NCBI GenBank assembly: GCA_030645455.1
Contig: JAUSNA010000031.1
Location: forward strand, 1 to 36,114
From: Candidatus Levyibacteriota bacterium
Lineage (GTDB): Bacteria; Patescibacteriota; Microgenomatia; Levybacterales; GWA1-39-11
Direction of reading: 5' to 3'
DNA length: 36,114 bases
How positions within the stretch are numbered: position 1 is the first letter of the stretch; the number at the start of each line of letters is the position of its first letter. The notes under the pieces are model-generated. The model worked only from the letters and a program-made list of their open reading frames with translations. It made no database searches and was not told the origin of the DNA. Below, piece after piece: positions 24,575-29,380 of the stretch. The translations under genes were made by a program, and so were the position numbers.

Positions 24575-24608
24575 TGCTTTGAACCGAACTTTTTGTATTA
24601 ATAAAACT

Positions 24609-24631
24609 AAACCTAACTTTCCTATAGGTTT
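24609..24631 (+). terminator. Weak terminator-like hairpin after the Idi gene
   Basis: AAACCTA (24609-24615) pairs with TAGGTTT (24625-24631), followed by AAATTTTT. The stem is short and AT-rich. Confidence 0.3.
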
Positions 24632-24686
24632 AAATTTTTGCCTATAAATGATATAATTTCTAAGTAATTTGCGGTTTTATAGGAAA
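24618..24686 (+). promoter_or_regulatory. Promoter of GC-rich cassette 1 with possible operators
   Basis: TTTAAA (24629-24634), a 17-bp spacer and a perfect TATAAT (24652-24657) with extended TG. Around it lie TTTCCTATA (24618-24626), CCTATA (24641-24646) and the inverse TATAGGAAA (24678-24686). The repeated motif on both sides of the promoter could bind a repressor. The leader to the first gene would be about 148 nt. Confidence 0.5.
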
Positions 24687-24744
24687 TTTGCTTACCTAGC
24701 GCAATCGCAAAAGCACATTGAAATGTTGCGGAAATAATTTTTGG

Positions 24745-24787
24745 TTGCTACCGCTTTTGGTATTATTAGTGCCCGAAGCGGTAGCAA
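24745..24787 (+). promoter_or_regulatory. Hairpin in the leader of cassette 1
   Basis: TTGCTACCGCTT (24745-24756) pairs perfectly with AAGCGGTAGCAA (24776-24787) around a 19-nt loop. No T run follows, so it is not an ordinary terminator. It ends 24 nt before the first start codon. Confidence 0.6.
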
Positions 24788-24811
24788 ATCAGAAAACCGG
24801 AAAGGAAGAAA

Positions 24812-25027
24812 GTGAATACATCAGCTATCCAAAAAGTCCCAGCGGGCACGAAAGTGAAATGTGCCCACTGCAACGAAAACGGCGTCTGGAAATGGTGCAC
24901 CAGGTGCATGATCTCCTTCTTGGAGACCCCTACGCCTGTTTGCCCCGATGCAGACAACGATCACGAGAGGCATAACACGCGTCTCACAGAACCTTCCCGA
25001 TGGACTCCCGGGGACCACGCAAGTTGA
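24812..25027 (+). CDS. Small zinc-ribbon protein (cassette 1, gene 1)
   Basis: The 71 residues contain C17-x2-C20-x8-C29-x2-C32 (KCAHCNENGVWKWCTRCM), a plausible zinc ribbon, and a hydrophilic tail without structure. GTG 24812 follows AAGGAAG. The stop TGA overlaps the next ATG by one base (TGATG), which suggests coupled translation. Base composition is clearly richer in G and C than the flanking genes. The family is unknown. A protein-, RNA- or DNA-binding ribbon is a guess from the Cys pattern only. Confidence 0.6.
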   Translation: MNTSAIQKVPAGTKVKCAHCNENGVWKWCTRCMISFLETPTPVCPDADNDHERHNTRLTEPSRWTPGDHAS

Positions 25028-25212
25028 TGACCAACACACTTCGCGACAATCTCGAGCGCATCTTCTTAACCCTAAAGGGAAGCGAAGGATGGATGACCCA
25101 CCCCAACAGTGAGCTCGACGGTGAAACACCGGATTCCTTGGTCAAAAGGGGCGAGGAGGACAAGGTCCTTAAGGTTCTTAAGTCCCAAATGGGATTCTGG
25201 ATCAACCACTAG
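25027..25212 (+). CDS. Small protein like an antitoxin MbcA/ParS domain (cassette 1, gene 2)
   Basis: From the ATG at 25027 the 61 residues contain GWMTHPNSELDGETPDSLVK. This matches the W-x3-PN-x2-L-x-G-x-TP-x2-L pattern of the MbcA/ParS/Xre-antitoxin toxin-binding domain (DUF2384). The Xre-type DNA-binding part and a RES-type toxin gene are absent, so it is a lone domain. It is coupled to gene 1 by TGATG. GC-rich codon use is unlike the neighbouring dnaX and idi. It could be a stand-alone regulator; a toxin-antitoxin role is not shown. Confidence 0.6.
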   Translation: MTNTLRDNLERIFLTLKGSEGWMTHPNSELDGETPDSLVKRGEEDKVLKVLKSQMGFWINH

Positions 25213-25224
25213 TAAGGAGGTGAC

Positions 25225-25416
25225 ATGACCGACATCAAAAACCTCTCGCAAGAACGAGCGCTTGAAGCCCATCGAGGACCGCCACTCTACGCCCGCAATC
25301 CCGACTGCGCACTTTGTGACGCGTCCGGATTGCACTATTCCGAGGACGGAGAACCAACGTACTGCATGTGCATGTACGAAGCAAAGCTTCCCTCATGGGC
25401 GCGCCGAAAGGCATAG
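25225..25416 (+). CDS. Small Cys-rich protein (cassette 1, gene 3)
   Basis: The 63 residues contain C28-x2-C31 and C47-x-C49 (CALCDASG ... YCMCMY), a probable zinc site. The site AAGGAGGTGAC directly before the ATG is a near-perfect Shine-Dalgarno sequence, stronger than at almost any other gene here. The segment GPPLYARNPDCALC...TYCMC resembles the C-terminal part of gene 4, so the two are probably paralogues. There is no membrane span or signal peptide. Function is unknown. Confidence 0.6.
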   Translation: MTDIKNLSQERALEAHRGPPLYARNPDCALCDASGLHYSEDGEPTYCMCMYEAKLPSWARRKA

Positions 25417-25470
25417 CCCAAAAAAGGGATCACACTTTCCCATCCGGGAAGAAAGGACAGGGTCAACACC

Positions 25471-25731
25471 ATGCCATTTTGGAACAAGAAAAAGGAGCCT
25501 GCGGTAACCGCTGCTCCCCAGAAGGCAACAACACCGACACCTAGTATCCAACCAGCCACCGAGTGGTTGGATCCACCACCGGGAGCGACAGAGAAGGAAC
25601 TCCTCGACGGTCGTGACGGTCCGGCGTACGGAGCCAATTCCGCACACAAGTGCGGAGGGTTCATGCGCAACGCAGAGGGAAAAGTGGTTTACTGCTTCTG
25701 TCGTCTCATGAAGATGAGCAACGGGAGGTAG
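25471..25731 (+). CDS. Small Cys-containing protein with disordered N-terminus (cassette 1, gene 4)
   Basis: The 86 residues begin with a basic, Pro/Thr/Ala-rich part (MPFWNKKKEPAVTAAPQKAT). They end with a domain similar to gene 3: DGPAYGANSAHKCGGFMRN, then KVVYCFCRLM. The first Cys of the pair is missing; His59-x-Cys61 could replace it, with C75-x-C77 as the second half. A purine-rich stretch upstream (GGGAAGAAAGGACAGGG) serves as ribosome site. It is the last gene before the terminator. Function is unknown. Confidence 0.55.
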   Translation: MPFWNKKKEPAVTAAPQKATTPTPSIQPATEWLDPPPGATEKELLDGRDGPAYGANSAHKCGGFMRNAEGKVVYCFCRLMKMSNGR

Positions 25732-25770
25732 GGCGTATCACTTTCCACAAATTCTCCGCAACAAAACCTA

Positions 25771-25799
25771 GGGCCGCCCCCATCCGGGCGGCCCTTTTT
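25771..25799 (+). terminator. Rho-independent terminator of cassette 1
   Basis: GGGCCGCCC (25771-25779) pairs perfectly with GGGCGGCCC (25786-25794) around CCATCC and is followed by TTTTT. It lies 40 bp after gene 4. It is also 22 bp from the dnaX stop on the other strand and could act both ways. Confidence 0.88.
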
Positions 25800-25820
25800 C
25801 TATTTAAAAAAAAGGGTTTT

Positions 25821-27865: not shown

Positions 27866-27944
27866 ATGAATGGTTAATGACTAATAGCTAATGGTTAATG
27901 AAGAAATAATATTTAACTATCAACTATTGACTATCAGCTATCAA
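27866..27944. repeat. AT-rich foldback spacer (rpsU-ybeY)
   Basis: The left arm GGTTAATGACTAATAGCTAA, TGGTTAATGA is nearly the inverse of the right arm TAACTATCAACTATTGAC, TATCAGCTATCAAC. Almost all differences are transitions, so both strands could pair with G-U wobble as RNA. The unit is about 7-8 bp (GTTRATR). Confidence 0.7.
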
Positions 27945-28130
27945 CTAATACTGATTGTGTTTTGCCATTTTCCGCGCAAGTTCTTTTTTGAATTTCTTGG
28001 CAAGGCTCGGTTTTAAATGAAACTCTCTTTTTTTCATTTCATGAATAATACCCTCGCTCATAACTTTACGAGAAAATTTTCGGATCATTGCATCGGGACT
28101 GTCCCCGGGTTGTTTTTTTACAAAAACCAT
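27945..28130 (-). CDS. rpsU: 30S ribosomal protein S21
   Basis: The protein begins MVFVKKQPGDSPDAMIRKFS, followed by RKVMSEGIIHEMKKREFHLK and a Lys-rich end, the S21 pattern, 61 residues in all. The longer frame from 28184 has a Cys/Trp-rich start unlike S21. An AAAGGTGGTG site lies upstream of 28130, about 10 nt away. S21 helps initiation on the small subunit. It heads the rpsU-ybeY-dnaX run. Confidence 0.93.
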   Translation of the reverse strand: MVFVKKQPGDSPDAMIRKFSRKVMSEGIIHEMKKREFHLKPSLAKKFKKELARKMAKHNQY

Positions 28131-28275: not shown

Positions 28276-28304
28276 TTGATCTTGTAAAAAACGAGGCGTA
28301 TAAT
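28276..28304 (+). promoter_or_regulatory. Promoter of GC-rich cassette 2
   Basis: TTGATC (28276-28281), a 17-bp spacer and a perfect TATAAT (28299-28304). Predicted RNA start near 28311. No protein gene of normal size follows for 740 bp on this strand. Confidence 0.65.
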
Positions 28305-28421
28305 TGCCGTAACTGAAGTTCAAAGGCCTTTGCCTTTGAGCACAGTTGTTCTTTGACTTTATTGTTCATGTTCCACCCGGCTTGCCGGGTGTTGCAGTTG
28401 ATTACACTCTGGAGGTTGTTC

Positions 28422-28478
28422 ATGAAGGACACGACCGGGCTGTTCGGTGATAGGGGGCCTCCGGGCTCCGCATCCTAA
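28422..28478 (+). CDS. Micro-ORF 1 of cassette 2 (18 residues)
   Basis: The ATG lies 6 nt after GGAGG (28411-28415). The peptide is MKDTTGLFGDRGPPGSAS. Just upstream is the hairpin CACCCGG/CCGGGTG. The stop overlaps the first base of the ACCGC/GCGGT hairpin. It is too short for a family assignment. Confidence 0.4.
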   Translation: MKDTTGLFGDRGPPGSAS

Positions 28479-28749
28479 CCGCACACGCGGTCACAACCAA
28501 GTGCAGGGCAACTTCCCTGTAACCGAGTGCCGGGGCAGTACGCACCCACCCAAGCGGCCAATTTGCCGACTATTTGCCCTAGTGGGTTATGGGTTGCGCT
28601 TCTCCCCCGAATGAGATGGATCACCGGCCTCTGGCCGGGCCTCCCGTTTGTCGGTGAGGGGGGTGCCCCGTAGTACCCCCTCACCGAATATCAACTGCAG
28701 TCAGGCAGCTCCTGACACCTTACAAGGCAAACCCAGGAGGGTTACCAAC

Positions 28750-28782
28750 ATGACGAAGTTCACGACCTCGACCTTCACCTAA
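28750..28782 (+). CDS. Micro-ORF 2 of cassette 2 (10 residues, Thr-rich)
   Basis: The ATG lies 9 nt after AGGAGG (28735-28740). The peptide MTKFTTSTFT has five Thr in ten residues, then TAA. Strong hairpins follow. Such a layout is known from attenuator leader peptides, but no threonine gene is near. Confidence 0.4.
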   Translation: MTKFTTSTFT

Positions 28783-28936
28783 CGCTGGCGATGTCGGCCG
28801 CCGCACGCCATGCGGCAGCAAACTGCCCCCACGCGGGGCACAACAGTTAACGACGAGGCTTCCCGTCCGTAAGTCTGACATTGCGCGCAGATACTCCGGA
28901 CACCGGAAGAGACACCTATGGTGCCACCCCGTCCCC

Positions 28937-28965
28937 GTCCGGGCGGCTCTCAGAGCCGCCCGGAC
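28937..28965 (+). terminator. Terminator-like hairpin at the end of cassette 2
   Basis: GTCCGGGCGGCTCT (28937-28950) pairs perfectly with AGAGCCGCCCGGAC (28952-28965). The tract after it (ATTCCATTT) is only partly T-rich. It shares the 10-mer TCCGGGCGGC with the cassette 1 terminator. Confidence 0.6.
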
Positions 28966-29047: not shown

Positions 29048-29380
29048 TTACACAACCGGAGCGTGAAGGCCTGTCGGGCCAATTAAATGAAAATGCAGAT
29101 GATTGATTACCTGTCCGCCACCGCCATTTACAATAATTTTATATCCTTTACCAACCAAATCATTCTGCTCAACAATTTTTTGAATTCCTTTTCTTATAGA
29201 AGAAAGTATTGCGTCATCAAAAAGATTTTCAAATGCCGCAATGTGTTCTTTTGGGATAAAAAGGACATGAACTTTTGCCACCGGATGGATGTCATCAAAA
29301 GCCAGAACATTCTCGTCCTTAAATCGGAAGTCCTTTGGAATATCGCCTTTGACTATCTCGCAAAATATACAATCAGTCAT
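29048..29380 (-). CDS. HIT-family nucleotide-binding protein
   Basis: The 110 residues have the complete HIT domain: CIFCEIVKGDIP, VLAFDDIHPVAKVHVLFIPK, INGG-like VNGGGGQVINHLHFHLIG with the His triad HLHFH. The family hydrolyses nucleoside phosphoramidates or dinucleotides. C4 and C7 make only half of the zinc site seen in some members. On the minus strand TATTAT (29388-29393) lies 7 nt before the ATG, so a leaderless start is likely. Confidence 0.93.
   Translation of the reverse strand: MTDCIFCEIVKGDIPKDFRFKDENVLAFDDIHPVAKVHVLFIPKEHIAAFENLFDDAILSSIRKGIQKIVEQNDLVGKGYKIIVNGGGGQVINHLHFHLIGPTGLHAPVV

Follow-up and report, generated by a model that had tools for sequence, protein, structure and literature searches.

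The identity of a GC-rich unit at positions 28276-28965 (+ strand) of a 36,114-nt stretch of the genome of a Candidatus Levyibacteriota bacterium (the whole stretch analysed, referred to as the window) poses the question of what is made from a stand-alone unit of about 655 nt without a normal protein product. Two housekeeping genes flank the unit, both on the minus strand: rpsU (ribosomal protein S21, Pfam match; about 27944-28130) on its left and a gene of the HIT family (29048-29380) on its right. It is divergent from rpsU and convergent with the HIT gene, and therefore no downstream gene shares its transcript. The GC content of its body is 0.60 compared with 0.32-0.35 in the flanks, in agreement with the original prediction that its base composition differs from that of the AT-rich surroundings. 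The sigma-70-type promoter of that prediction was also recovered and is the best promoter match of the region (Table 1). The terminal stem, described earlier as 14 bp, is present but comprises 13 bp closed by a 3-nt loop; the longer count requires a loop of 1 nt. Since the U-tract that follows it (ATTCCATTTA) is weak, a role for this stem as a terminator is plausible rather than clear.

Table 1. Features of the GC-rich unit, with the GTTCTTTGA sites of the genome (window positions unless a locus is named)
Feature	Position	Strand	Remarks
Sigma-70-type promoter TTGATC-17-TATAAT	28276..28304	+	10/12 consensus matches
8-bp stem-loop upstream of boxA (boxB-like position)	28320..28339	+	
boxA-like element GTTCTTTGAC	28348..28357	+	fits GYTCTTTRA
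7-bp hairpin CACCCGG/CCGGGTG directly after boxA	28374..28391	+	
Predicted multibranch domain	28393..28699	+	z -4.5, prediction only
Shine-Dalgarno GGAGGT of micro-ORF 1	28411..28416	+	
Micro-ORF 1, 18 codons, MKDTTGLFGDRGPPGSAS	28422..28478	+	ATG 28422, SD spacing 5 nt
6-bp hairpin	28624..28638	+	
Perfect 12-bp stem, 13-nt loop	28651..28687	+	
6-bp hairpin	28700..28716	+	
Shine-Dalgarno AGGAGG of micro-ORF 2	28735..28740	+	
Micro-ORF 2, 10 codons, MTKFTTSTFT	28750..28782	+	ATG 28750, SD spacing 9 nt
6-bp hairpin	28800..28816	+	
6-bp hairpin	28824..28840	+	
Terminal stem, terminator-like, weak U-tract	28937..28965	+	13 bp, 3-nt loop
GTTCTTTGA sites	reported unit; L038 4983(-); L042 17923(-)		

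Comparison with Rfam, proposed earlier as a check, matched no family. At gathering thresholds cmscan found nothing in the window (tmRNA, RNase P, rRNA, GOLLD, ROOL, OLE, and others), a permissive cmscan returned weak, chance-level matches only (best E=0.26), and ARAGORN found nothing; cmscan and ARAGORN thus bear out the claim that it is not tmRNA, RNase P, or rRNA. By blastn, the unit matched only itself in its own genome (no paralogue) and in overlapping sets of 99 genomes of relatives, 380 of the phylum, and 374 of the class, and it matched nothing in phage and plasmid records. DNA patterns of the micro-ORFs found no homologue in viral contigs, and a covariance model of 28520-28700, weak because it was built from one sequence, recovered only the unit itself in 374 genomes. 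A literature search yielded no report of such a large RNA for this lineage. A homologous locus in relatives, whose absence the original prediction had named as telling against it, was not detected in the genomes searched. The description of the locus as an undescribed RNA or small-peptide mRNA of this lineage holds insofar as the unit is discrete, is not rRNA, tmRNA, or RNase P, has strong predicted structure, and carries two translatable micro-ORFs; the words "of this lineage" apply only narrowly, as no relative searched has the unit. Because nothing similar was found elsewhere, any function assigned to the unit is conjectural.

The surrounding gene order, DnaX-YbeY-S21-HIT, is conserved in six genomes of the same family and in one Levybacteria MAG. 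Of these seven genomes, four have an S21-HIT spacer of about 120-210 bp and one a spacer of about 430 bp, and the other two carry, between S21 and HIT, a gene of 390-422 aa that is unrelated to the unit; a related RNA at the syntenic site was accordingly rejected. Because the order is conserved without the unit in relatives, the unit would most simply be a lineage-specific gain. A search of genome contigs with DnaX returned distant relatives only, the nearest being a Levybacteria MAG (39% identity), and yielded no locus homologous to the unit. The S21 leader of one relative (L058 1980-2220) contains imperfect hairpins ending in a CCCGATTAAATCGGG palindrome and is possibly an S21 regulatory leader.

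The unit is rich in hairpins. Measured against 2000 dinucleotide shuffles, which supplied the expectations for hairpins and Shine-Dalgarno (SD) sites, it contains seven perfect stems (6 bp or longer, loops of 3-8 nt) where 0.98 are expected (p=0.0005), and the roughly ten perfect hairpins reported earlier are reached once 5-bp stems and the 12-bp stem with its 13-nt loop are counted. It folds far more stably than its dinucleotide shuffles (z -8.1 and -8.45), and a perfect 10-bp helix (28393-28402 with 28690-28699) closes the predicted multibranch domain. This structure is a prediction from single-sequence folding, no relative searched having the unit. GC-rich coding regions of the same genome also out-fold their shuffles (z -2 to -6.6), although less than the unit does, and a large structured RNA is at present an unproven identity for it.

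In rRNA leaders, boxA is the binding site of NusB/S10. The leader of the unit consists of the promoter, a stem-loop, the boxA-like GTTCTTTGAC, and a hairpin, an order like that of an rRNA leader, and a GC hairpin is equally placed after boxA in two other GC-rich units of the genome. Both the boxA-like element at 28348 and the other GC-rich units are additions to the original prediction. GTTCTTTGAC departs from the strict gamma-proteobacterial consensus, GYTCTTTAANA (PMC5725501), an exact match to which is found in L067 and L078. The genome contains three copies of GTTCTTTGA with two GC runs close behind, all of them in front of GC-rich units, and GTTCTTTAA adds two sites at such units (L067 9063(+) and L078 3832(+)). 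The motif GTTCTTT[AG]A has 27 scorable places over the 1.19-Mb genome; five of these lie just upstream of 500-nt stretches with at least 50% GC compared with a background of 1.6% (p=6e-5, an optimistic value because the motif was defined post hoc from these sites), and the GC content downstream of boxA-like sites is clearly discontinuous between 45% and 51%. Of 300 letter-shuffled 9-mers, not one has as many sites before GC-rich stretches as GTTCTTTGA, which has three. Stems are predicted upstream of boxA at all five GC-rich sites and are on average stabler than those at the other matches (p=0.02). The genome encodes NusB (PF01029 match, contig C63, E=2.2e-22), and so the features looked for in boxA antitermination (a boxA sequence in the leader, an upstream stem-loop, and a NusB gene in the genome) are all present. 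The 30 loci with boxA and GC runs that were examined among 82 genomes of the order were chance-like sites and 23S boxA only, and none was another GC-rich unit like this one.

The likeness to rRNA operon leaders (boxB-boxA, NusB/NusE) extends to the order of promoter, stem-loop, boxA (GTTCTTTRA), and hairpin-rich, GC-rich transcript. In relatives of the same order, GTTCTTTGAAAAG, a boxA matching that of the unit, lies 56-96 nt before the 23S rRNA, and the genome's own 16S leader has a long stem followed by GTTCTTTTGG, not GTTCTTTGA. The unit differs from an rRNA operon in that its transcript is not rRNA (no Rfam match), is free-standing, and has a terminal stem of its own.

The boxA-like motif precedes four further GC-rich units, all of which have long ORFs and foreign-looking composition, and the reported unit is the only boxA-led GC-rich unit without a long ORF. 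GC-richness alone is therefore no mark of a structured RNA, nor does boxA imply a non-coding transcript. The earlier argument from composition is thereby weakened: further GC-rich units of this genome, including coding ones (for gapA, FBPase, and secreted-looking proteins), are almost as conspicuous, and their coding sequences likewise out-fold shuffles. The GC-rich units are probably an acquired class. A second, GC-rich gapA (L034 611-1633, G000 contig C1) is 43% identical to the native-type copy (G000 C79:29092-30129) and looks acquired. A GC-rich FBPase gene (L078 3947-5077) has a boxA-like leader, and no FBPase was found in the same-family genomes searched; the FBPase genes of relatives have a GC content close to that of their surroundings, and the gapA loci of relatives are without a comparable GC jump. 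L042 16271-17980 and L038 3635-4990 are GC-rich and have boxA-like motifs; their leaders are long and structured (394 and 541 nt were folded), and their proteins have no Pfam matches. Secreted-looking proteins are among the products of the other GC-rich units. Phage origin of these units was rejected, as the three proteins tested have no relative in viral contigs; the one PHROG match, for gapA, is to a PHROG of unknown function.

Several other GC-rich regions were observed. The window itself contains a second GC-rich transcription unit (24600-25800), in which a hairpin leader precedes four or more small ORFs for small Cys-rich proteins, one of which is weakly similar to the C-terminus of Xre/MbcA/ParS antitoxins, below the Pfam cut-off; the 3' stem of this small-protein operon (24800-25800) resembles that of the reported unit. 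A further GC-rich small-ORF operon (L257 210-1390) has a TATAAT-like promoter, a hairpin, and a terminator. A GC-rich gene at L035 11895-12857 has a 320-aa product that includes an RNA polymerase alpha C-terminal domain, and a 10-codon micro-ORF (MTKVLRMYRG) lies in the L038 leader. One contig of 2999 bases (L047, G000 contig C14) has a computed G+C of exactly 0 and probably consists of N.

The strongest rival to a functional RNA is that the unit is a decayed or truncated acquired GC-rich coding unit, of which the promoter, boxA leader, and 3' stem are left, the coding sequence having been lost or degraded and the transcript being functionless. The boxA leader and GC-rich 3' stem are traits of the GC-rich coding class and both are present in the unit; other units with the same leader and stem carry long ORFs, and long structured leaders are also found before the L042 and L038 genes. 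Codon usage was scored with a model that had learned from the organism's own GC-rich genes; it separates true frames only modestly, and the reading frame of one small ORF in the training set (w1) was off by one base. The scores are negative in nearly all windows of the unit in all frames, which argues against decay, the exceptions being a weak coding-like signal just past micro-ORF 2 in another frame, which favors it, and signals in the AT-richer leader region. No longer ORF with a strong SD site was found at these exceptions, and the unit contains no long ORF with an SD site and matching codon usage of the kind that would mark a protein-coding gene of the GC-rich class. Decay should also erase hairpins and SD sites, yet both exceed chance, and no related intact copy was found in the organism's own genome. 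Decay is a possible but unlikely origin of the unit.

The next rival is a small-peptide mRNA, the product of which would be the 18-aa and/or 10-aa peptide, the structure merely stabilizing or regulating the message. The two micro-ORFs behind strong SD sites were reported earlier and are upheld: ATG 28422 and ATG 28750, both well spaced, are the only starts of the unit with an anti-SD match of at least 6 nt, and 0.25% of shuffles have at least two ATGs of this kind (p=0.0025). The neighboring GC-rich operon, which encodes several small proteins, also favors this reading. However, the micro-ORFs account for only 28 codons in 655 nt, and there is no homologue with which conservation of frame could be compared; a message made for its peptides appears improbable. 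An assembly or binning artefact, in which foreign DNA was misjoined into the contig, would explain the sharp composition jump but is highly improbable given that the GC rise begins just past the AT-rich promoter, this pattern is seen again in several contigs, and the genes on either side stand in their conserved order.

Our favored explanation, held tentatively and at somewhat less than even chances, is that the unit encodes a structured, essentially untranslated RNA under Nus/boxA-type antitermination. The anatomy of the unit, its more than chance number of hairpins and SD sites, the enrichment of boxA at GC-rich units, the NusB gene, and the absence of the unit from the relatives searched are observations; the lack of homologues, the well-folding coding units (to z -6.6), the post hoc motif, and the weak U-tract count against this explanation. 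The promoter would drive an RNA of about 655 nt, and the leader stem-loop and GTTCTTTGAC would recruit a NusB/S10 antitermination complex as in rRNA operons. Polymerase could thereby continue as far as the terminal stem on a GC-rich unit whose transcript is hairpin-rich and barely translated. A boxA leader would suit a transcript with many hairpins that few ribosomes protect from termination. The RNA would fold into a multibranch structure and most likely act as RNA, and the micro-ORFs, as putative ribosome landing sites, may regulate or protect it.

Transcripts with boxA outside rRNA are represented by suhB, in which boxA represses a coding gene (PMC5725501). The unit likewise has a boxA leader outside rRNA but, unlike suhB, no gene follows boxA in its transcript; non-coding RNAs were not considered in the boxA study, as its authors note (PMC5725501). 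The unit has a general resemblance to GOLLD, ROOL, and OLE (PMC12286853) in its long, strongly structured (predicted) transcript without a long ORF, and differs from them in matching no Rfam family.

In its broadest and more doubtful form, the proposal is that this Levybacteria-like CPR bacterium has a large structured RNA of a new class. Its leader would be of the rRNA antitermination type, and it would belong to a genome-wide boxA regulon that also drives acquired GC-rich genes. An AT-rich host would then have turned rRNA-style antitermination to the expression of GC-rich DNA that is foreign and prone to hairpins. If true, the use of boxA antitermination, mostly seen as a device for rRNA, would extend to an orphan structured RNA and to a set of acquired GC-rich genes in a reduced bacterium. 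This would add a large RNA to the lineage and would suggest how AT-rich CPR cells express foreign DNA that is rich in GC.
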